Shown in pieces: positions 51,045-61,098 of a stretch of 64,000 nucleotides of DNA. The stretch spans positions 310,001 through 374,000 of the forward strand of contig NZ_JBGUAY010000005.1 of NCBI RefSeq assembly GCF_041821025.1, in the 5' to 3' direction. The notes below the pieces were generated by a model. The model was not told where the DNA came from and made no database searches. It was given only the letters and a program-made list of their open reading frames with translations. The position numbers and the translations under genes are program-made. The DNA comes from Egicoccus sp. AB-alg6-2. GTDB taxonomy: Bacteria > Actinomycetota > Nitriliruptoria > Nitriliruptorales > Nitriliruptoraceae. Position 1 is the first letter of the stretch. Each line of letters opens with the position of its first letter.

Positions 51045-52079
51045 TCAGCGCGTGCGCGTCACCTTGGTCAGGCCGCGCGGCGACTCGGGATCGCCGCCCC
51101 GCGCCACGGTGACGTGCAGGCACCACAGCTGGGCCGCCACGATCGCGACGATCGGGGACAACCACTCGGCGACACCACCGGGAACGGCGAGCACGTCGTC
51201 GGCGACGTGGCGGACGTGCTCCGGCCGGTCGGCGAGCACGAGCGTGCGTGCGCCCTGCTGCCGGAGGCCGGCGAGGGTGTCGAGCATGCCGGCGAGCCAC
51301 CTGCCGTCGGTGGCGACGGCGAGCACGGGGAAGTCCGGCTCGACCACCGCACGCGGTCCGTGCGCGAAGTCCGCCGGCGACGCCGGCTGAGCCAGCACGT
51401 AGGCCAGTTCCTGCAGTTTCAGGGCCCACTCGTGGGCGGTGGCGAGTCCGGTCGCACGGCCGAGCACCGCACAACGGTCGAAGTCGGCCCAGCGCGCCGC
51501 GACCTCGGCGACGACCGCCTCGTCGGCGAGCGCGGAAGCCACGGCGTCGGGGACCCGTCCCAGGTCATCGCCGTCGTCCGCGGGGGCCAGGGCGGCGGCG
51601 ATGAGGGCGACGGCCCCGAGTTGCGCCGTGTACGTCTTGGTCGCCGCAACGGCCCGCTCCGGGCCGGCACCCAGCGCCAGCACCTGGTCGGCGACCTCGG
51701 CCAGCGGTGACGCCGGCTCGTTGGTGATCGCGAGCGTCGGTCGGCCCTGGCGGCGGGCCTCGGCGAGTACGGCGACCAGGTCGGGCGACGCGCCCGACTG
51801 GGAGATGCCGACCACGACCGCACCATCGAGGCGCGGCGAAGGCGTGCCCTCGGCGAACAGCGCGGGTGCCGCGAGACCGACCGTCAGCCGGGCGCGCTGC
51901 CCCCACAGGTACTGCGCGTACCGGGCCGCGTTGTCGGAGGTGCCCCTGGCAGCGATCACGACATGGGTCGGCGCGGCGTCGCGCCACTGCCGGGCGACCG
52001 CCGCGGCCGTCGGGTGCTGCGTCGCGAACAGTCGGCGCAGCACCTCGGGTTGTTGGAGGATCTCCTCGTGCGGGGTCAC
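51045..52079 (-). CDS. SIS-domain sugar isomerase, probable glucosamine-6-phosphate deaminase
   Basis: A 344-residue protein with two SIS domains (AARGTSDNAARYAQYL and VVGISQSGASPDLVAVL in the first; CAVLGRATGLATAHEWALKL and DFAHGPRAVVEPDFPVL in the second). It lacks the glutaminase domain of GlmS. Together with NagA encoded just upstream (GTGA overlap), it probably converts glucosamine-6-phosphate to fructose-6-phosphate and ammonia in place of NagB. It ends the amino-sugar operon. Galactosamine-type substrates (AgaS) are an alternative. Confidence 0.88.
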   Translation of the reverse strand: MTPHEEILQQPEVLRRLFATQHPTAAAVARQWRDAAPTHVVIAARGTSDNAARYAQYLWGQRARLTVGLAAPALFAEGTPSPRLDGAVVVGISQSGASPDLVAVLAEARRQGRPTLAITNEPASPLAEVADQVLALGAGPERAVAATKTYTAQLGAVALIAAALAPADDGDDLGRVPDAVASALADEAVVAEVAARWADFDRCAVLGRATGLATAHEWALKLQELAYVLAQPASPADFAHGPRAVVEPDFPVLAVATDGRWLAGMLDTLAGLRQQGARTLVLADRPEHVRHVADDVLAVPGGVAEWLSPIVAIVAAQLWCLHVTVARGGDPESPRGLTKVTRTR

Positions 52080-53332
52080 CGGCCGGGCTCCTCCCCCACC
52101 GACGACGCCCCACCCAGCTCGGGCGGCAGCGGCAGACGGTCCGGCCGGGGATGCGCGGCCAGGCGACCGGCGACGAAGGTCGCGACGACCTCGAGGTCGG
52201 AGGTGAGCACCACGACGTCACCGTGTCCCCCGACGGCCAGGACGCCTCGGCGCCGCTCACCGAGCAGCCCCGCCGGGGTCGCGGTGGCGGCACGCAGCGC
52301 GGCGAAGGGGTCGGCGCCGGTGGCCGCCACCAGTTCGCGCAGAGCGCGGTCCATCGTGACGGTGCTGCCGGCGAGTGCCCCGTCCTCGTCACGGACGACC
52401 CCGTCCGCGATGGTGACGGTGCGTCCGCCGAGGACCGCTTCCCCGCCGTCGGTTCCGGCGGCGGCGATGGCATCGGTCACCAAGGCGATCCGCCGAGGCC
52501 CGAGGAGCCGCCACAGCGCCGCCACGGTCCCCGGGTGCAGGTGCACCCCGTCGACGATGAGTCCGACGACGGCGTCCGGGTCGGCGAGCAGCGCACCGAT
52601 GGCGCCCGGCTGGCGGGCCGTGAATCCCGACATCGCGTTGCCGAGGTGGGTGCCGGCACGGGCGCCGGCTTCGAGTCCAGCCGTCGCCTCCTCGAAGGTG
52701 GCGTCGGTGTGGCCGAGAGCCACGACCACGTCACGACGGACGAGTTCGGCGATGATCCCGCATGCGCCGGGAAGCTCCGGCGCCACCGTCACCAGGACCA
52801 GACCGGCGTCGCGGGACCACCCCTCGATCAGTGACGGGTCCGGTGGTCGGAGTGCCTCGGGTGCGTGGGTGCCGCGTTTGGCTGGCGCGAGCATCGGCCC
52901 CTCGGCATGCACGCCGAGCGCCGTGGCGCCGACGTGGTCCGCGGGCCGTCGGGCGAGCGCGGTCAGCGCCGCCGCGACCGCCTCGGAGGACGAGGACACG
53001 ATGGTGGGCACGAAGGCGGTCACGCCCTGGGCGGGCAACCGGGCGGCGAGCTCCCACAGGCGATCGGGCCGCTCACCGAGCTCGGACGTGAGGTCGATGC
53101 CGTGACCACCGTTGACCTGCAGGTCCACGAACCCGGGCGCGACGAGCAGCCCGCTCACGTCGACCGTCACGGCCGAGCTGTCGTCGGCGTCGGCGGAACG
53201 GACGGGAAGCTCGTCGACGGCGTCCGTACGGATGGCATCGATGCGGCCGTCACGCAGGACGAGGTCGCCGGTTCGTGGGCCGTCGGGAAGCGCCAGCCGA
53301 CCACCGGTCAGCCGGATCGTCGACCGGGTCAT
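52076..53332 (-). CDS. nagA: N-acetylglucosamine-6-phosphate deacetylase
   Basis: A 418-residue amidohydrolase. GFVDLQVNGGHGIDL is the NagA-type replacement of the HxH motif; HAEGPML, VVALGHTDATFEEA and LVTDAIAAAG carry the metal-ligand and catalytic Asp positions, and HLGNAMSGF closes the active site. The ATG overlaps the nagZ stop and its own stop overlaps the SIS gene. It deacetylates GlcNAc-6-phosphate delivered by the ROK kinase in this operon. Confidence 0.95.
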   Translation of the reverse strand: MTRSTIRLTGGRLALPDGPRTGDLVLRDGRIDAIRTDAVDELPVRSADADDSSAVTVDVSGLLVAPGFVDLQVNGGHGIDLTSELGERPDRLWELAARLPAQGVTAFVPTIVSSSSEAVAAALTALARRPADHVGATALGVHAEGPMLAPAKRGTHAPEALRPPDPSLIEGWSRDAGLVLVTVAPELPGACGIIAELVRRDVVVALGHTDATFEEATAGLEAGARAGTHLGNAMSGFTARQPGAIGALLADPDAVVGLIVDGVHLHPGTVAALWRLLGPRRIALVTDAIAAAGTDGGEAVLGGRTVTIADGVVRDEDGALAGSTVTMDRALRELVAATGADPFAALRAATATPAGLLGERRRGVLAVGGHGDVVVLTSDLEVVATFVAGRLAAHPRPDRLPLPPELGGASSVGEEPGR

Positions 53333-54984
53333 CGGGACCGCCCCACCGGCGCGGAGACGGGGAGGCGACCTGTCGCGGCCGCTTCCCCGCACAGGACCGC
53401 GGCCAGTGCGTCGATGGTGGGCGGCAGGATGCCGTAGCTGCAGAGCACGGTCGGGGCAGCCGCGAGGACCTCGAGGTCGGACGGCGTGCGCAACGCCACG
53501 GCGACGACGGGGGTGCCCGCGTCGAGGACGGCGCGGACGAGTTCCGCCTGTGCGGGCTCGAGGCTGGCGGCGCTCGTCCCGAGCACGACCATGCCGGCGT
53601 CGTGGGCCGCGGACACCGCGGCGGCGGTCTCGGCGCGGTCCGGAGGGTCGGTGACGACGAGGCTGCGCACGCGGGGCAATCGCTCCCGGAGGGCGGCGGC
53701 GAGCAGCGGCGGGACGGTCGAGGTCGTGTCGGCCGGTGTCAGGTCGCGTGGCTGCGGCTGGATCACCAGGACCTCGGTCTCCTCGGACACCGAGATGGGC
53801 AGGAGCGCGTCGTCGTCGCGGACCAGGGTGATGGATCGCTGCGCCAGTTCGGCGGCGAGTACGGCGTGCTCGGTGCCACCGACGGCGTCCGGCGGCGGTG
53901 CCACCAGGGCACCCGCGCGTCGGCGCAGCGCCGTGAGCCGCCGGGCGGACGCGGTGAGACGGTCGGCGTCGAGCAGGCGCCGGTGCAACGCCAGTCGCAA
54001 CCCGTCTCGGAGCCGGACGTTGGCGTCCTCGTCGTGGCCGCACAAGAGCAGGTCGACGCCGGCGTGGAGGGCGGCGACGGCGTCGACGATCTGGCCGGCG
54101 CCCTGCGTCAGGGCCTTCATGTCCAGCGCATCGGTGATGATGACGCCGTCGTGACCGAGCTCTTCGCGCAGCAGACCGGTCATCACCTCGGCCGCCAGGG
54201 TGGCCGGCAGGTCGTCGCGACCGGTGAGTGCCGGCACGGCGAAGTGTCCCGACATCACCAGGTCCGGTCCGGCCCGCAGCGCGGCGCGGAACACCGCCAG
54301 CTCGCGGGCGTCGAGCACCTCGCGGTCCACGTCGACGGCCGCGAGACGGTGGTGGGTGTCGACGGCGACGGCACCGGTCCCGGGGAAGTGCTTGAGGGTC
54401 GCGGCGACGCCGGTGGAACGCACCCCCCGGACGAACGCGGCCGCGAGCCGACCGGCGGCGACCGGCTCGTCCCCGAAGGCGCGCAGACCGAGACCCGGCG
54501 CGGTGGGGTCGCTGAGGAGGTCGCAGACGGGCGCGTAGACGACGTTGACGCCGCAGGCGGCGGCCTCGCGACCGATGGCGGCACCGACGCGTTCGGCGAG
54601 ATCTGGATCGTCGGCGGCGCCCAGCGCGAGGTTGCCCGCGAACGGGGTGCTGTGGTCGCCGAGGCCGAGCAGCTGTCCGCCCTCCTGGTCGATCGCGACG
54701 AGCAGCGGCGGGGCGGCGGGCGGTCGTGCCGCCTGCATCGCGTCGGTGAGCGCGCGCAGCTGGTGCGGGGTGTCGACGTTGTCGTGGCGGAACAGGGTGA
54801 CCCCGGGCACCTCGCCGGCCGCGATCTCGGCCGCCGCGTGCGCGGGCAGCTCGCGGCCAGCATACGCCCGCAGCAGGTGGGCATCGGTCGGGTGGGCCCC
54901 GGGAGGCGACCCGGTCGGGTGGGCCCCGGGAGGCGACCCGGTCGGGTGGGCCCCGGGAGGCGACCCGGTCGGGTGGGCCGTCAT
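53329..54984 (-). CDS. nagZ: Beta-N-acetylhexosaminidase, GH3 (NagZ type), cytosolic
   Basis: A 551-residue glycoside hydrolase that removes terminal beta-GlcNAc. The NagZ catalytic loop is KHFPGTG (198-204) with D209-T-H211; the nucleophile is probably Asp285 in IITDALDMKAL. VAIDQEGGQLLGLG is also typical. A C-terminal Rossmann-like domain (about 385-545) is present as in Gram-positive NagZ. There is no signal peptide, so it acts on imported sugars. The ATG overlaps the permease stop; residues 5-31 are three perfect TGSPPGAHP repeats, whose DNA is listed separately. No other start downstream of the repeats has a ribosome-binding site. Confidence 0.93.
   Translation of the reverse strand: MTAHPTGSPPGAHPTGSPPGAHPTGSPPGAHPTDAHLLRAYAGRELPAHAAAEIAAGEVPGVTLFRHDNVDTPHQLRALTDAMQAARPPAAPPLLVAIDQEGGQLLGLGDHSTPFAGNLALGAADDPDLAERVGAAIGREAAACGVNVVYAPVCDLLSDPTAPGLGLRAFGDEPVAAGRLAAAFVRGVRSTGVAATLKHFPGTGAVAVDTHHRLAAVDVDREVLDARELAVFRAALRAGPDLVMSGHFAVPALTGRDDLPATLAAEVMTGLLREELGHDGVIITDALDMKALTQGAGQIVDAVAALHAGVDLLLCGHDEDANVRLRDGLRLALHRRLLDADRLTASARRLTALRRRAGALVAPPPDAVGGTEHAVLAAELAQRSITLVRDDDALLPISVSEETEVLVIQPQPRDLTPADTTSTVPPLLAAALRERLPRVRSLVVTDPPDRAETAAAVSAAHDAGMVVLGTSAASLEPAQAELVRAVLDAGTPVVAVALRTPSDLEVLAAAPTVLCSYGILPPTIDALAAVLCGEAAATGRLPVSAPVGRSR
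54887..54979 (-). repeat. 27-bp tandem repeat, 3.4 identical copies, in the nagZ 5' end
   Basis: Three identical 27-bp units (54887-54913, 54914-54940, 54941-54967) and a 12-bp partial copy encode TGSPPGAHP repeats right after the nagZ start codon. Perfect identity suggests recent slippage or unequal crossing-over. Confidence 0.93.
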
Positions 54985-55946
54985 CCCTTCACCCCGCCGG
55001 TGAGCAGGCCCCGGACGAAGTAGCGCTGCATCGTCAGGAACACGACCAGCGGCACCACCATGGACACGAACGCTCCGGCGGTGAGCAGGTGCCAGTCCTC
55101 GCCGCGGGTGCCGACGAGCTGCTGCAGCTGGGCGGTGAGGACCGCGACGTCGGAGCTGGTGCCGAGGAAGATGTAGGCCACGAGGAAGTCGTTCCACACC
55201 CATAGGAACTGGAAGATCGCGAAGGCGGCCAGCACGGGGGCGGCGAGTGGCAGCACCAGGCGGAGGAACGCGGTGAAGTGGCTGGCCCCGTCCACGTAGG
55301 CCGCCTCCATCAGCTCCTTTGGCAGGTCCGCCACGTAGTTGTAGAGCAGGAAGATCGCCATGGGCAGCCCGAACCCGGTGTGCGCGAGCCAGGTGCCGAG
55401 GTAGGTGCCCGTCAGGTGCCAGCCCACGTAGAGCTGCAGGAGGGGGACCAGGGTCATCTGCAGCGGGACCACGAGGAGGCCGACCACCACGGCGAACAGC
55501 ACCTTGCGTCCAGGGAACTCGATCCAGGCGAAGGCGTAGGCGGCGAAGGCGGCCAGGCTGATGGGGATCACCGTCGCGGGGATGGCGATGACCAACGAGT
55601 TGACGAAGGCGTCGAACATGCCGCGGTCGCCGAGCACGCTGACGTAGTTGGCCAGCGTCCACTGCGAGGTCTCGAACGGATGGGCGATGGCGGTCCACCA
55701 GCCGCTGGTCGCGATGGCGCCGGGTGCGCGCAGCGAGCTGATCAGCAGGCCCGCGGTCGGCAGCGACCACACGAAGGCGATGACCACGACCAGCAGGCGG
55801 ACGAGCAGCGAACGGCGACCGGGTTCGTGGCCCCGCCGCCGGGATCCGCGGCGCCACCGCAGCGGGCGCGGCTCGCTGCGCCTTTGGGTTCGGCGTCGCT
55901 GCGAGGTCGGTGACTCGACCGTCCGCGGCGGGACCAGGGCCGTCAT
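54981..55946 (-). CDS. Carbohydrate ABC transporter permease (MalG-like)
   Basis: A 321-residue inner-membrane permease with six predicted helices after a basic N-terminal tail. The EAA loop EAAYVDGASHFTAFLRLVLP, which contacts the ATPase, and the C-terminal MQRYFVRGLLTGGVKG are typical of MalG-type CUT1 permeases. Start and stop overlap the neighbours by four bases each. No ATPase gene is in the operon, so a shared MsiK-type ATPase elsewhere is likely. Confidence 0.93.
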   Translation of the reverse strand: MTALVPPRTVESPTSQRRRTQRRSEPRPLRWRRGSRRRGHEPGRRSLLVRLLVVVIAFVWSLPTAGLLISSLRAPGAIATSGWWTAIAHPFETSQWTLANYVSVLGDRGMFDAFVNSLVIAIPATVIPISLAAFAAYAFAWIEFPGRKVLFAVVVGLLVVPLQMTLVPLLQLYVGWHLTGTYLGTWLAHTGFGLPMAIFLLYNYVADLPKELMEAAYVDGASHFTAFLRLVLPLAAPVLAAFAIFQFLWVWNDFLVAYIFLGTSSDVAVLTAQLQQLVGTRGEDWHLLTAGAFVSMVVPLVVFLTMQRYFVRGLLTGGVKG

Positions 55947-57133
55947 GCGCCCACCCCCTGCCGGTGCATGTTGCGGATGTTGACGACCATGACCGGAACG
56001 ACCACCAGCAACAGGATCACGGCCAGCGCGCTGGCACGCCCGAAGTTCTGGAACTGGAACATCTCCTTGAACATGCGGGTCGCGACCACCTCGGTCTCGA
56101 AGTTGCCGCCCCGTCCCATGACCCAGACGATGTCGAACACCTTGAGGATGGCGATGAAGATCGTCGTGGCGACGGTCAGGATGGTGCCGCGGATCATGGG
56201 AACGACGATGCGCCGGAACACGGTGAACTCCCCGGCACCGTCCAGGCGGGCCGCCTCGATCACCTCGCCGGGCACCGACTTGATCGCGGCGGAGAAGATG
56301 ACCATCGCGAAGCCCGTCTGCAGCCAGATCATGACCACGATCAGGGCGACCGTGTTGAGCGGGCTGATCGAGAGCACCGGGATCGCCTCGAATCCCAGCC
56401 CGGTGACGATGGCGTTGAGCAGGCCCGTCTGGGGGCGGTTCGTCGGCTGCCAGGCGTAGACGAAACGCCAGATGACGCTGGCGCCGACGAACGAGATCGC
56501 CATCGGCAGGAAGATGAACGTCTTGGCGAGCGCCTCGCGCTTGAGCCGGTCGACCAGGGCCGCGAAGCCCACGCCGATCACGACGCTGCCCAGCGTGCCG
56601 AGCACCAGCCAGAGGACGTTGTTGCGGAACGCGAGCAGCATCGCCGGGTCGGTGAGCGCGAAGCGGTAGTGGGCGAGCGTGAACTCGCCGGCCCGGTTGG
56701 TGAGGCTCTGGCGGATGGTGCCGATCGTCGGCACGACGAGGTAGATCGCGATGAGGGCGACCGCCGGACCGACGAACAGCCACGGACGCACCTGCTCCCG
56801 CACCTTATCGCCGAACACCGTGTCGATGGCGTGGTTGGCGGTCACGAACAACGCCCACACCCCACCCACGCCGACGAGCAGGGCGACGCCGGCACCTCCG
56901 AGCTTGCGCGACGCCGGGGTGAGGCCGCGCGACGCGACCGCCTCGGCCGAGGCGTCGGCGCCCAGCAGGCCGAGGATCCGGCTCACCGCACGGTCGGTCG
57001 CCAGCGGGTCGGCGAGGAATCCCACGCTCCACCACAACAGGGCGACCACGACGCCGAGGGCCGCGAGGGCCAGGAGCGCCCGGGCAACCCTGGCCGGGCG
57101 ACCAGATCGCCCGTCGAAGGTGACGCTGGCCAC
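55943..57133 (-). CDS. Carbohydrate ABC transporter permease (MalF-like)
   Basis: A 396-residue permease with about eight hydrophobic helices; the extra N-terminal pair and periplasmic region (30-110) resemble MalF/AglF. The EAA loop is EAARLDGAGEFTVFRRIVVP. The GTG (VASVTFDG) has GGGAGGGGG six bases upstream; an upstream in-frame GTG would start inside the intergenic hairpin and is rejected. It partners the MalG-like permease and the lipoprotein encoded upstream. Confidence 0.92.
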   Translation of the reverse strand: MASVTFDGRSGRPARVARALLALAALGVVVALLWWSVGFLADPLATDRAVSRILGLLGADASAEAVASRGLTPASRKLGGAGVALLVGVGGVWALFVTANHAIDTVFGDKVREQVRPWLFVGPAVALIAIYLVVPTIGTIRQSLTNRAGEFTLAHYRFALTDPAMLLAFRNNVLWLVLGTLGSVVIGVGFAALVDRLKREALAKTFIFLPMAISFVGASVIWRFVYAWQPTNRPQTGLLNAIVTGLGFEAIPVLSISPLNTVALIVVMIWLQTGFAMVIFSAAIKSVPGEVIEAARLDGAGEFTVFRRIVVPMIRGTILTVATTIFIAILKVFDIVWVMGRGGNFETEVVATRMFKEMFQFQNFGRASALAVILLLVVVPVMVVNIRNMHRQGVGA

Positions 57134-57156
57134 GATGCACCCCCTCCCGGGTGGTG

Positions 57157-57196
57157 GGGGTGCCGGATCGACCGTCTCCGGTCGTTCCGGCACCCC
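57157..57196 (-). other. Intercistronic hairpin between binding-protein and permease genes
   Basis: GGGGTGCCGGATCGAC (57157-57172) and GTCGTTCCGGCACCCC (57181-57196) form a 16-bp stem with one mismatch and an 8-nt loop, midway in a 126-bp gap. Such hairpins often raise binding-protein mRNA over permease mRNA by partial termination or 3' protection; that role is inferred. Confidence 0.6.
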
Positions 57197-57259
57197 TGGT
57201 GGGTGATTCCCGAGGACTCCGGACCGGCGGACCGACCAGAGCGCCCGAGCTTGTACGGC

Positions 57260-58762
57260 CTACTCCTCGCCGTCCCATTCCAGGGCGTCGAGTCGGGCCA
57301 GGATCTCGTCGGTGTTGCCGCCCCCTGCCCGGATCCAGTCGACCATCGCGGCGTTGAAGGCCGATCCGACCGCGGCGGGCATGCCGTCGGAGGCGTCGTC
57401 GCGCAGGGTGGACGCTGCGGCCAGGATGGCTGCGGACTCCTGCGAGGAGTAGTCCTGGTACCAGTCGTCGGGCACGCTCTCGTTGGGCGAGATGAACCCG
57501 CCGGCAGCGATCATCGGCTCGACGGCGGCCGGAGTCGCGAGGAACTCGAGCAGGGCCCGGACCGGTTCGCGGTCGTTGAACGCCACGAACTGGTCCGCGG
57601 CGCCGAGCACCGGGGTGCCGTAGGCGTCCTCGATCGGGGGCAGGACGAAGAACTTCGCGTCCTCGCCCGCGGACAGGCGCTCCGCCTCGGGGTCATCGGC
57701 CGATGCGTTCGGGTCGGCGAGGAAGAAGTCGGCGATCCAGGTGGCCTGCTTGTGGAACCAGCAGTCCGGACCGTCCTGGCCGTGGAACATCGGCAGCGGG
57801 GTCGCGCCGACCCAGGTCTCGTTCATCCAGGTCGGCCCGCCATAGGCGTAGCCGTCCGTGAAGAACAACTCGGCGGTGCGCTCGAACGCCTCGGCGACCT
57901 CGGGATCCGAGAAGTTCCGCTCGCCGGCGGCCCACTCGTCGTAGACCTCGGGCGGTGCGGTGCGCAGCAGGACGTCCTCGACCCAGTCGGTCGCGGGCCA
58001 GCCGCTGAAGTCGCCGTGCTCCACGCTGATGCACCACGGGCTGGACCCGCTCGCGACGATCTTGTCGGAGAGGGCGGTCAGCTCGTCCCAGGTGGTCGGA
58101 ACCTCGTAGCCGGCGTCCTCGAACGCCTGCGCCGGGTACCAGACCACGGACTTGGTGAAGGCGCCCCAGGTGATGCCGTAGACGTCGCCGTCGGCACTGG
58201 TCATCTCCAGCCAGGCGTCCCCGAAGTCGGCACCGAGCTGGTCGCTGTCGATCCAGTCGCCGACCGGTACGAGGTGGCCGTTCCCGGCCAACGTCCGCAT
58301 CAGCCCCGGTTGGGCGACCTGGGCCACGTCAGGTGGGTTGCCGCCCTCGGCGCGGGCAACCAGGGTGGTGGTGTAGTCGGCGACACCGTCGATCTGCACG
58401 GTGATACCGGTGGCGTCCTCGAAGGGGCGCACGGCCTCGGTGAACCGTTCGCCGTCCTCGGCGATCCACTGGCTGAGCACGGTGACGGTCTCGCCCTCGT
58501 AGGCGCCCTCCAGCGCGTCGGCCAGGTGGGTGTAGCCGGCGGGGACGTCGAATGCGGGCTCGCCCGCGTCGGTGTCCTCGCCGTCGTCGTCGGTCGCTGC
58601 GCTGTCGTCGTCGGTCGCTGCGCTGTCGTCGGTGTCGGCGTCCTCGTTGCCTTCGGCGCTGCTCGGTTCGCCGTCGGCCTCGGGGGCGGGGTTCGCGCAC
58701 GCGCCTGCGAGCAGCGTTATGGCTGCCCCGGCCGCGAGCGCCGCTCGCATCCCTCTACGCAT
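57260..58762 (-). CDS. Sugar ABC transporter substrate-binding lipoprotein
   Basis: A 500-residue secreted lipoprotein. The signal peptide ends in the lipobox LAGAC with Cys22. A very acidic linker (about 25-70), built partly from a 21-bp duplicated unit (58584-58625, DSAATDD), spaces the domain from the membrane. The body is a CUT1-type solute-binding protein, with VTVLSQWIAEDGERF, PDVAQVAQPGLM, WDELTALSDKI and FFVLPPIEDAYGTPVLGAADQF. GGAGAGGG lies just before the ATG. It should capture the sugar for the two permeases; GlcNAc disaccharides are inferred from nagZ and nagA. Confidence 0.93.
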   Translation of the reverse strand: MRRGMRAALAAGAAITLLAGACANPAPEADGEPSSAEGNEDADTDDSAATDDDSAATDDDGEDTDAGEPAFDVPAGYTHLADALEGAYEGETVTVLSQWIAEDGERFTEAVRPFEDATGITVQIDGVADYTTTLVARAEGGNPPDVAQVAQPGLMRTLAGNGHLVPVGDWIDSDQLGADFGDAWLEMTSADGDVYGITWGAFTKSVVWYPAQAFEDAGYEVPTTWDELTALSDKIVASGSSPWCISVEHGDFSGWPATDWVEDVLLRTAPPEVYDEWAAGERNFSDPEVAEAFERTAELFFTDGYAYGGPTWMNETWVGATPLPMFHGQDGPDCWFHKQATWIADFFLADPNASADDPEAERLSAGEDAKFFVLPPIEDAYGTPVLGAADQFVAFNDREPVRALLEFLATPAAVEPMIAAGGFISPNESVPDDWYQDYSSQESAAILAAASTLRDDASDGMPAAVGSAFNAAMVDWIRAGGGNTDEILARLDALEWDGEE

Positions 58763-58805
58763 GGTCCCTCTCCATCCATCTCGTCTTGCCAGTGCCCGTC
58801 GGGAG

Positions 58806-59759
58806 TCAGCCCGGCGTGGCTGGATTCATCGCGACGACCGGTGTCGCCGCGTCTTCGAGAGGTCGCGCGGTGGCTCCCACCAACGCGGCCGCACCCACCG
58901 CACCGAGCGGACCCTCCGCCGGTGCACACCTGATGCGCTCGGGTCCCAGGAGGAACCCGGCGACTTCGGAGCGGGACGCCTGCTCCGCGAGACGCCCCCG
59001 TACGGCTTGCAACAACGGTTCGCCGATGCGACCCACGCCGCCGCCCAGCACGGCCACGTCGGCGCCGTACGCGACGACCAACCAGGTGATGGCCGTCGCC
59101 AGATGAGCGGTGACCTCGTCGGCGAGGACGCGCGCGTCGGGATCGCCGACGGTCGCGCGGCGGAACAGGTGCGCGGCCGCCTCGGCGCCCCCGGCGGGCC
59201 AGCGATCGCGCAGGGCGCCACCCGACACCAGGGCCTCGAGGCAACCGCGTTGACCGCACCGGCAGGCGGGACCAGTCGGGTCGACGACGACATGACCGAT
59301 CTCGCCCGCCATGCCGTTTCGGCCCCGATGGATCCGGCCGTCGATGACGACCCCGGCCGCCACGCCGGTGCCGATGCCGAGGAAGACCAGGACGTCGGCG
59401 TCGGGGGCGAGATGCACGTGGGCGCCGAGCGCGGCCGCGCGGGCGTCGTTCTCGACCTCGACGTGGGCGTCGAAGGCGGCGGCGAGCCGGCTGCCCAGCG
59501 GAAGGCGGACGCCGTCGATGCCGAGGTTGACGGCCAGTCCGACCGAGCCGTCGACGCGGTCGACCTGGCCCGGGATGCCCACGCCGATCCGGTCGACACC
59601 GCCGGTGGGCGCCACGCGTCGGATCGCTTCGATCGTGCCGTCGACGAGCGCGGCACCGGGACGGGTCGGCACGAGTGCGTGCCCCTCGATCCCGCCGTCG
59701 GGTCCGATCCGCACCACTTCGGTCGTCGAACCGCCGATGTCCACGCCGATGGCGGTCAT
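58806..59759 (-). CDS. ROK family kinase, probable N-acetylglucosamine kinase
   Basis: A 317-residue ROK kinase without HTH domain. IGVDIGGSTTEVVRI is the N-terminal phosphate motif; VENDARAAALG has the catalytic Asp; GEIGHVVVDPTG with CRCGQRGCLEALVSG is the zinc site. It is coupled by an ATGA overlap to the ROK repressor upstream and precedes the sugar uptake genes. In this setting it most likely makes GlcNAc-6-phosphate, the NagA substrate; glucose cannot be excluded. Confidence 0.9.
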   Translation of the reverse strand: MTAIGVDIGGSTTEVVRIGPDGGIEGHALVPTRPGAALVDGTIEAIRRVAPTGGVDRIGVGIPGQVDRVDGSVGLAVNLGIDGVRLPLGSRLAAAFDAHVEVENDARAAALGAHVHLAPDADVLVFLGIGTGVAAGVVIDGRIHRGRNGMAGEIGHVVVDPTGPACRCGQRGCLEALVSGGALRDRWPAGGAEAAAHLFRRATVGDPDARVLADEVTAHLATAITWLVVAYGADVAVLGGGVGRIGEPLLQAVRGRLAEQASRSEVAGFLLGPERIRCAPAEGPLGAVGAAALVGATARPLEDAATPVVAMNPATPG

Positions 59760-60925
59760 GGCCGCACCATCCCGAGTTCGCCGGCCAACACCAGGGCGTG
59801 CGCGCCGTCGAGCACCAGGTCCTCGGCGTCGACCGCCGCACGCACGTCGACGTCGTGGGCCAGGCGCGGCAACAGACAGTCGCCGACCACCTGCCGCACC
59901 CGCTCGGCGAGCGCTTCACCGACGCCGGGGATCTCGACCGACAGCACGACGTCGGAGACGTCGACGATGGCGATCATGTGGGCCACGACCGAACCCAGAT
60001 GGTCGGCCGCGAGATCCAACGCTGCCCGCACCGGCGCCCCACCGGCCGCCAACAACGCGGCGAGATCGGTAGGCGGGTGCGCGAGGTCGAAGCCGCCCGC
60101 GGCCAGGATCGGGCGCAGGCTCGCCACGGTCTCGAGGCAGCCGTTGTTGCCGCACGAACACGGCGCCCCGTCGGGCACCACGACGAGATGTCCGACCTCG
60201 CCGGCTGCTGCCCGACTGCCCGCGTAGGGGCGGCCCCCGAGCACCAGGCCGGCGCCGACACCGGCACCGATCCGCACGAGGGCCAGGCCGTCGCGCCCCT
60301 CGGGCAACCGGCCGAACTCGACCAGTGCGGCCGCATCCGCGTCGTTGGCGACCCAGACCGACAACCCGGTCCGTGCCTGCAGTTGCGCGCCGAGCGGCCG
60401 GTCGTGCCAACCGAGGTTCGCCGCCTCGACGACGGTGCCGTCGGCGTGCACCAGGCCGGGCGTGCCGATGCCCACGCCCGCGATCGGCGCGCTCGCCTGC
60501 GCGGCGAGGTCCTCGATGAGGTCCGCGAGGGCGGCGACGAGTTCGTCGCCGTGCATCGGCTCGTGCAGCGTGCCCGACGCGAGCGGCCGACCGGCGAGGT
60601 CGCTGAGCAGCCCGACGACGACGTCGGTGCCCACGTCGATGGCGACGACCTGGCGGGCCCCTGCGTCGATGGCGAGCAGCGTGGGCCGCTTCCCGCCGGC
60701 CGACTCCCCCGGCCCGGCCTCGACCACCAGCCCGTCGTCGACGAGCTGGTCGATCAGGGAGGAGATGGTGGGGCGGGTCAGTCCGGTGAGCCGCGCGAGG
60801 TCGGCGCGGGTCACCGCCGTGCCCGAGGCGACGGCGTGCAGGACGGAGCGGCGGTTGACCTCGCGAGCCTGTTGCCCCGAGGCCGTACGGACCGAACGCA
60901 ACGGTCCGACCAGCAGGTCAGCCAC
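59756..60925 (-). CDS. ROK family transcriptional repressor (NagC/XylR type)
   Basis: A 389-residue regulator. A winged HTH lies at about 22-78 (NRRSVLHAVASGTAVTRADL, then ARLTGLTRPTISSLIDQLVD). A ROK sugar-binding domain follows, with VVAIDVGTDVVVGLL, WVANDADAAALVEF and the zinc motif CSCGNNGCLET. GGGGAGGAC precedes the GTG. It heads the operon, with a GTTAG-N9-CTAAC palindrome covering the -10 region upstream, so autoregulation with induction by an amino sugar or its phosphate is likely. Confidence 0.93.
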   Translation of the reverse strand: MADLLVGPLRSVRTASGQQAREVNRRSVLHAVASGTAVTRADLARLTGLTRPTISSLIDQLVDDGLVVEAGPGESAGGKRPTLLAIDAGARQVVAIDVGTDVVVGLLSDLAGRPLASGTLHEPMHGDELVAALADLIEDLAAQASAPIAGVGIGTPGLVHADGTVVEAANLGWHDRPLGAQLQARTGLSVWVANDADAAALVEFGRLPEGRDGLALVRIGAGVGAGLVLGGRPYAGSRAAAGEVGHLVVVPDGAPCSCGNNGCLETVASLRPILAAGGFDLAHPPTDLAALLAAGGAPVRAALDLAADHLGSVVAHMIAIVDVSDVVLSVEIPGVGEALAERVRQVVGDCLLPRLAHDVDVRAAVDAEDLVLDGAHALVLAGELGMVRP

Positions 60926-60987
60926 GTCCCGTCCTCCCCTCGGTCTCCCAACCGGCGCGTCGTCGCGCTCCCCCAGCGACGAACTTC

Positions 60988-61028
60988 GTTAGGAAACAAA
61001 ACTAACACTGGTGAAGCGCGCCGGTCAA
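60988..61028 (-). promoter_or_regulatory. Promoter with overlapping ROK operator
   Basis: On the minus strand TTGACC (61028-61023), an 18-bp spacer and TAGTTT (61004-60999) form a near-consensus promoter. The palindrome GTTAG-N9-CTAAC (60988-61006) covers the -10 element. This AT-rich patch stands out in the GC-rich region. Confidence 0.65.
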
Positions 61029-61041
61029 GGGTTTCCCGCGC

Positions 61042-61089
61042 CCACTTCGGCGGGTCGAGGCGGCGCCACTTCGGCGGGTCGAGGCGGCG
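61042..61089. repeat. Perfect 24-bp tandem duplication
   Basis: Two identical adjacent copies (61042-61065 and 61066-61089) lie between the cyclo-ligase stop and the ROK promoter. I see no coding or hairpin role. Confidence 0.9.
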
Positions 61090-61098
61090 CCCGGTCGG

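Follow-up and report, generated by a model that had tools for sequence, protein, structure and literature searches.

Operons in which a regulator of the ROK family controls the use of chitobiose or N-acetylglucosamine (GlcNAc) are an already known kind. According to the available part of PMC3750489, the ChiR operon of Thermotoga maritima contains chiEFG, cbsA, nagA, and nagB, and it is chitobiose, not GlcNAc, that releases ChiR. The NagR cluster of Bifidobacterium is listed as nagK-nagR-nagB-nagA-gltFGH in the available sections of PMC9599254. Here, we compare with these systems, and with the DasABC-MsiK/DasR system of Streptomyces, an eight-gene amino-sugar operon of Egicoccus sp. AB-alg6-2, the assembly of which (3.74 Mb, 24 contigs) is 98.4% complete. 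The operon lies in a stretch of 64,000 nt that was analyzed as a whole (hereafter the window; positions 310,001 to 374,000 of contig NZ_JBGUAY010000005.1), to which all coordinates without a contig label refer.

Eight consecutive genes, transcribed leftward, occupy 51045-60925 on the minus strand. They encode a ROK-family transcriptional repressor (59756-60925; 389 aa, GTG start), a ROK-family sugar kinase (58806-59759; 317 aa), a lipoprotein solute-binding protein from the nag-linked clade of the AglE-like family (57260-58762; 500 aa), two ATP-binding cassette (ABC) permeases, P1 of the MalF/UgpA type (55943-57133; 396 aa) and P2 of the MalG/UgpE type (54981-55946; 321 aa), a NagZ-type two-domain GH3 β-N-acetylglucosaminidase (53329-54984; 551 aa), the N-acetylglucosamine-6-phosphate (GlcNAc-6-P) deacetylase NagA (52076-53332; 418 aa), and a SIS-domain candidate for a NagB-II-like glucosamine-6-phosphate (GlcN-6-P) deaminase (51045-52079; 344 aa). 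Five of the seven junctions are 4-nt overlaps (repressor/kinase, P1/P2, P2/NagZ, NagZ/NagA, and NagA/SIS), the other two being gaps of 43 nt between the kinase and binding protein genes and of 126 nt between the binding protein and P1 genes. The start of P1 at 57133 is preceded by a Shine-Dalgarno sequence, and an alternative start at 57193 is possible. A leftward amino-sugar run with mostly 4-nt overlaps and no ATPase gene was what the original prediction had described, and both points hold within the eight genes; its upper limit, 61028, coincides with the first base of the hexamer TTGACC (61023-61028), upstream of the coding span. Since the gene order is conserved in other phyla, the run is not due to chance.

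Curated Pfam cut-offs are passed by seven of the eight proteins: both ROK proteins (PF00480; 155.5 bits for the repressor, in which MarR_2 is also above cut-off, and 174.8 for the kinase), P1 and P2 (BPD_transp_1, PF00528; 50.1 and 48.6 bits), NagZ (GH3 N- and C-terminal domains; 219 and 42 bits), NagA (Amidohydro_1), and the SIS enzyme (PF01380; 89.9 bits). The binding protein has a subthreshold Pfam match only, yet it displays a lipobox and signal and has strong PDB and structural relatives. NagA alone exceeds its NCBIfam equivalog cut-off (TIGR00221; 266 bits versus 225.65), and the remaining proteins are named at family level.

An importer, an intracellular β-N-acetylhexosaminidase, nagA, and a GlcN-6-P deaminase candidate are thereby found together, the combination characteristic of operons of the ChiR/NagR kind. 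As in the ChiR operon, a ROK regulator with a single site, an importer, a putative chitobiose hydrolase, and the nagA and nagB functions are united in one operon; Thermotoga differs in belonging to another phylum, and no kinase is named in the available part of PMC3750489. The NagR cluster is also actinobacterial; in it, a ROK repressor, a ROK kinase, nagA, and nagB accompany the genes of a binding protein and two permeases, an ATPase is absent from the listing, and the operators overlap the -10 or -35, but NagZ is not among its listed genes and its regulon in B. infantis is broad (PMC9599254, available sections). The Streptomyces system likewise combines a chitobiose ABC importer running on a shared ATPase, intracellular hydrolysis, and a NagK/NagA/NagB logic, but its regulator is the GntR protein DasR and its transporter proteins are different ones, as far as the available text of PMC6167110 goes. 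A ROK repressor in place of DasR had been presented as a peculiarity of this locus; the regulator is indeed of the ROK family, but the arrangement is not novel, being known from the Thermotoga and Bifidobacterium systems just cited (PMC3750489; PMC9599254).

We consider it likely that the operon serves the substrate-induced scavenging of a disaccharide that contains GlcNAc, most probably N,N'-diacetylchitobiose produced by the chitinases of other organisms, a reading drawn from the gene content and order, their conservation, the operator, and the absence of alternative enzymes, all apparent from the sequence. We infer which exact ligand is bound, what the kinase phosphorylates, which effector and ATPase take part, and how NagZ catalyzes cleavage, as follows. 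The lipoprotein would capture the disaccharide outside the cell and pass it to P1 and P2, which would be powered by a MalK/UgpC-type ATPase from another locus (C2:453610-454614 being the best candidate). Inside the cell, NagZ would split the disaccharide to GlcNAc, the ROK kinase, a presumed GlcNAc kinase, would convert GlcNAc to GlcNAc-6-P, NagA would remove the acetate, and the SIS enzyme would turn GlcN-6-P into fructose-6-phosphate and ammonia. The ROK repressor would act on a palindrome in the promoter, from which chitobiose, GlcNAc, or a derivative would release it.

The best PDB match of NagZ is the GH3 β-N-acetylglucosaminidase 6k5j (E 2e-71). We call it NagZ-type and two-domain because it scores 161 bits against PRK05337, the NCBIfam model of single-domain β-N-acetylhexosaminidases, with a cut-off of 207. 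By hydropathy, it has no N-terminal hydrophobic stretch and hence no signal peptide. A GH3 domain, a His/Asp dyad (D209-H211 in a DTH motif; both residues are invariant in the orthologue alignment), and the lack of an export signal are the features of an intracellular GH3 β-N-acetylglucosaminidase. From conservation, we take D209-H211 to be the catalytic dyad and D285 the nucleophile. The first residues of NagZ are encoded by a perfect 27-nt tandem repeat of 3.5 copies (54885-54979; HPTGSPPGA repeated); no such repeat is seen in four orthologues over the regions aligned.

The SIS-type deaminase NagB-II is well established (PMC2996990, available part). The operon SIS enzyme has two SIS domains and no glutaminase match, which is the NagB-II architecture, and its best PDB match is the glucosamine-6-phosphate deaminase 8eol (E 6e-38), with GlmS structures behind (4s1w, 1e-30; 1moq, 3.5e-30). 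A further SIS-type relative labelled glucosamine-6-phosphate deaminase, 1j5x (E 7e-5), is presumably the Thermotoga protein. E224, H240, and K339 are invariant in 6/6 operon SIS proteins and align with 8eol; we take E224 and H240 to be GlmS-type active-site residues and presume a role for the C-terminal K339. The enzyme is not a GlmS, its match starting at model position 255-256 of ~600, and a full-length GlmS (807 bits) is encoded separately on contig C6. These two are the only proteins with SIS domains in the genome. A standard NagB was sought through PF01182, which was absent from the host genome and present in 9 of the 14 control genomes searched in the same way. Since there is no NagB-I, only two SIS proteins exist, and a complete GlmS lies elsewhere, the operon enzyme is the only visible candidate for a GlcN-6-P deaminase in this genome, which agrees with the earlier proposal that a GlmS-like SIS enzyme replaces NagB. 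As for the kinase, it carries EIGH and CRCGQRGCLE motifs, and an NCBIfam scan reached no equivalog for it.

The repressor has an N-terminal winged helix and EVGH and CxCGxxGCxE motifs; the NagC model gives 124.7 bits, below its cut-off of 650. Upstream of its gene, the TTGACC -35-like hexamer is followed just downstream by the palindrome GTTAGTTTTGTTTCCTAAC (60988-61006, minus strand), a predicted operator of the form GTTAG-N9-CTAAC. A ROK gene within the operon and a palindromic site at the promoter are again what ChiR/NagR-kind operons display. When the pattern derived from the window was scanned against the genome with ≤3 mismatches, two matches were returned, a perfect one here and another with three mismatches; a reversed control pattern also gave two. 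The single perfect site would suit a local repressor with one site, as ChiR is. A more relaxed form, GTWAG-N9-CTWAC, was found with 0-1 mismatch at most 81 bases from the start of the repressor gene, or of its match, in 10/14 operons (the window, L039, L077, L091, L053, L090, L067, L076, L078, and L183), a count that is not independent, since some of these operons had served to define the pattern. A scan for the sigma-70 consensus called no promoter, an Rfam scan gave no match, and the sole terminator-like site is on the opposite strand within the operon, no more than shuffled sequences yield. Directly upstream of the promoter region lies a perfect 24-nt tandem repeat of 2.1 copies (61042-61091).

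The closest homologues of the binding protein and P2, and by its matches also those of P1, are in the AglEFG-like (α-glucoside) family, from which the importer, judging by sequence, descends. AglEFG(A)K-type importers of rhizobia and roseobacters have the same gene order (L133, L134, L137, and L147), and in the opened records their binding proteins are ~34-38% and their P2 proteins ~51-58% identical to those of Egicoccus; these loci differ in having their own GH13-type enzyme and UgpC-type ATPase and no nag genes, and the nag-linked binding proteins stand apart from theirs. Plasmid-borne relatives of the binding protein numbered 171 records, all <60% identical, of which 10 were opened: an annotated α-glucosidase, GH13/α-amylase-family enzyme, or amylosucrase is beside the importer in seven, and the other three have a LacI regulator only, a DUF3459 gene (presumably α-amylase-like) ~3 kb away, and no annotation, respectively. 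Plasmid relatives of P2 are up to 61% identical, several of them beside α-glucosidase genes.

Within the class (66 genomes), binding proteins with at least 50% identity occur in five genomes besides the host, and all others are ≤42% identical. The kinase gene adjoins in 5/5 of the former and the repressor gene in 4/5, the fifth contig ending first. At the lower-identity loci, nag genes occur in 0/14, and GH13, LacI, or AglK homologues in 12/14. Two trees separate the sets by a single branch: the first, 14 nag-linked from 10 other binding proteins (89/92; 94% of bootstrap trees), and the second, 13 from 20 (98 in the Shimodaira-Hasegawa-like approximate likelihood ratio test, SH-aLRT). None of 500 shuffles for either tree gave a split as low as that observed. 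Compared with the first tree, the second dropped four nag-linked loci (L053, L054, L056, and L059) and four others (L136, L144, L145, and L146) and gained L152, L181, and L182 on the nag side and 14 loci of the class on the other; the nag set was gathered via NagZ neighbors or high identity, so that exceptions may exist outside the sample. By these trees, nag-linked binding proteins are one group apart from the α-glucosidase-linked ones, and the importer was apparently joined to nag genes once. This AglEFG-like origin, missed by the original prediction, is a real addition; a literature search of titles and the starts of abstracts, with subscription papers mostly outside it, returned no description of an AglEFG-like importer in a nag operon. 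Two nag operons of Chloroflexota have double binding proteins, one (L053, 4770-7562) with two nag-type domains in a single 931-aa frame and the other (L059, 2150-4879; 910 aa) with a nag-type domain after a nonmatching first half that resembles another binding-protein domain.

Within the binding protein, two positions distinguish the groups. Residue 342 is W in 13/13 nag-linked rows and F in 20/20 others, and residue 150 is A in 12/13 and P in 20/20. W255, W260, and W277 are common to all 33 rows and do not discriminate between ligands because such tryptophans serve both chitin oligosaccharides and α-glucosides in the available parts of PMC8233162 and PMC13311272. In a sequence alignment with NagB2, a binder of chitin oligosaccharides, W255 is paired with a tryptophan, Trp217 if we go by the numbering; equating W342 with NagB2 Trp296 was considered and is not established, the alignment stopping before W342. 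The NgcE model TIGR03851 gives 48.3 bits, against a cut-off of 399.65. In the AlphaFold2 model, the mean predicted local distance difference test score is 82.2, with residues 1-65 low. Naming the ligand by fold proved uninformative, since 1000/1000 chains had Z ≥8, with AcbH, BxlE, and glucose binders at the top. Between the lipobox and the folded part is a low-complexity linker rich in Asp, Ala, and Thr (58567-58678), with imperfect 21-nt repeats in its DNA. According to the available part of PMC13311272, sequence homology alone cannot yet reliably predict the ligand specificity of such binders, and our assignment of the ligand draws on linkage within the operon and on the Thermotoga precedent.

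An ATPase shared in the manner of MsiK had been expected elsewhere in the genome. A rhizobial UgpC/AglK query returned 44 ATPases in the host (E up to 1e-20), the best being C2:453610-454614, which is also the only one in the genome with a MalK OB fold above cut-off and for which UgpC is the best model (411 of 432 bits). Five of the next six ATPases by score were scanned with NCBIfam, C6:134324 being left out; three matched best to PotA (polyamine) or PhnT2 (aminoethylphosphonate), and two had no match at the strict limit of E 1e-90. The expectation is therefore borne out to the extent that one MalK/UgpC-type candidate exists; that it powers the importer as a shared subunit is plausible. This ATPase gene lies in the operon of another importer (L046, G000:C2:446000-462000), where a GntR-type regulator and a glycoside hydrolase resembling MGH1 are also encoded; this suggests that the latter importer takes up glucosylglycerate or mannosylglycerate, for which MGH1-like enzymes are the hydrolase type. 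A second AglE-like importer is encoded on C7 (binding protein C7:48539-49729), and the AglK-like ATPase found nearest to it, at a distance of ~10 kb, does not match the MalK OB fold.

Several observations weigh against chitobiose scavenging. The SIS enzyme reaches 188 bits with the NagB-II equivalog NF046059, far below the cut-off of 430, which is why we label it NagB-II-like and not a NagB-II member. No GH18 chitinase or GH20 enzyme was found in the host genome by searches that were positive in 6/14 and 4/14 control genomes, respectively; a GH19 search gave no match in any control and is uninformative. The nearest relatives of the transporter outside the nag clade adjoin α-glucosidases, so that specificity of the binding protein for another sugar is a real risk, and in the fold search the best match was AcbH (Z 42.9), described as galactose-specific, above the chitin-oligosaccharide binders (Z 31-32; NagB2, Z 31.9). 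Finally, no clear match to GTWAG-N9-CTWAC was found in 4 of the 14 operons (L057, L055, L181, and L182).

The lack of GH18 and GH20 would also suit a peptidoglycan scavenger, in which GlcNAc-MurNAc (MurNAc, N-acetylmuramic acid) or GlcNAc-anhydroMurNAc is imported and split by NagZ, and wall material is recycled. NagZ-type GH3 enzymes do cleave such disaccharides, and Cellulomonas Nag3 prefers GlcNAc-anhydro-MurNAc (PMC8950772, available part). However, MurQ was not found above cut-off in the genome, its sole match being the operon's own SIS enzyme (26 bits versus 302), and the operon encodes no MurNAc enzyme, so that we regard this alternative as improbable. Chitobiose and wall-derived disaccharides had initially been left side by side as substrates suggested by NagZ; because MurQ was not found, chitobiose is now preferred and muropeptides are less likely. 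Still more improbable, in our view, is that the importer carries an α-glucoside of the maltose, trehalose, or sucrose type and is merely coregulated with the GlcNAc genes. Family membership, the contexts of its relatives, and the three tryptophans shared by both groups speak for this, but the nag-linked binding proteins fall on one side of a single branch in both trees, W342 versus F and A150 versus P separate the two groups, none of the 14 lower-identity loci has nag genes, and no α-glucosidase was seen in the four nag-type contigs fetched, most of them short. Another variant concerns catalysis: NagZ might be a phosphorylase releasing GlcNAc-1-phosphate (GlcNAc-1-P) and GlcNAc instead of two GlcNAc, with the kinase needed for one sugar only. 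The His/Asp dyad, linked to phosphorolysis in GH3 by the available part of PMC8950772, invites this reading, but the operon encodes a kinase and no enzyme that would convert GlcNAc-1-P to a substrate of NagA, and no prokaryotic enzyme of that activity has been described according to the available sections of PMC9599254. We judge phosphorolysis unlikely and favor hydrolysis of chitobiose by NagZ.

How widespread is this unit? In a NagZ search of 81 genomes, parts of it were found in five (G020, G024, G048, G063, and G013), one of which (G020, locus L039) has all eight genes in the same order. Three congeneric genomes have no orthologue, their best GH3 matches being 34-37% identical and their binding proteins ≤38%. 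A wider NagZ survey of an 84,980-species collection gave 80 named loci among the matches listed, and it is to these listed matches that the following counts apply. All eight genes are in order in L077 and L090, seven of eight in L053 (without the kinase) and L057 (without a SIS match), and L091 lies on a contig ending after NagZ; a nag-type binding protein, both permeases, and NagZ occur together in 10/80 loci (L052, L053, L054, L056-L059, L077, L090, and L091), and many others carry more distant permeases. The operon order is kept in other Nitriliruptoria, Acidimicrobiia, and Chloroflexota, and a NagZ tree built by a quick method (52 rows) unites Nitriliruptoria, Acidimicrobiia, and some of the Chloroflexota in a single intermingled group (19 rows, SH-aLRT 99), which is compatible with transfer between phyla in either direction. 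Elsewhere in the survey, at L096, L102, L110, L115, L119, L120, and other Nonomuraea/Planotetraspora-type loci, NagZ is beside another binding protein and permeases, and ROK-type genes encoded on the other strand flank most of these arrangements on either side. In the window, the operon is flanked by a 5-FCL-like gene upstream and by DUF3500 and GuaB genes downstream, GuaB being named by reading its sequence.

Taken together, the gene content of this genome suggests that Egicoccus sp. AB-alg6-2 lives as a scavenger of chitin fragments that other organisms produce. Amino-sugar operons of the ROK plus SIS type are a portable unit of Chloroflexota and deep-branching Actinomycetota, and not a case of DasR and NagB being replaced locally. 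We tentatively propose, as a scenario that may or may not hold, a single ancient joining of an α-glucoside-type ABC importer to ROK-kinase-NagZ-NagA-SIS genes, in which the binding protein was re-tuned from α-glucosides to a β-linked GlcNAc disaccharide, possibly by the F-to-W change at residue 342, before the whole unit spread between Chloroflexota and Actinomycetota. With their two near-fixed differences, the nag-linked and α-glucosidase-linked binding proteins offer a clean paired set for a shift in ligand specificity, and, if the proposal is true, the re-tuned importer would be a natural experiment on ligand change in sugar importers.

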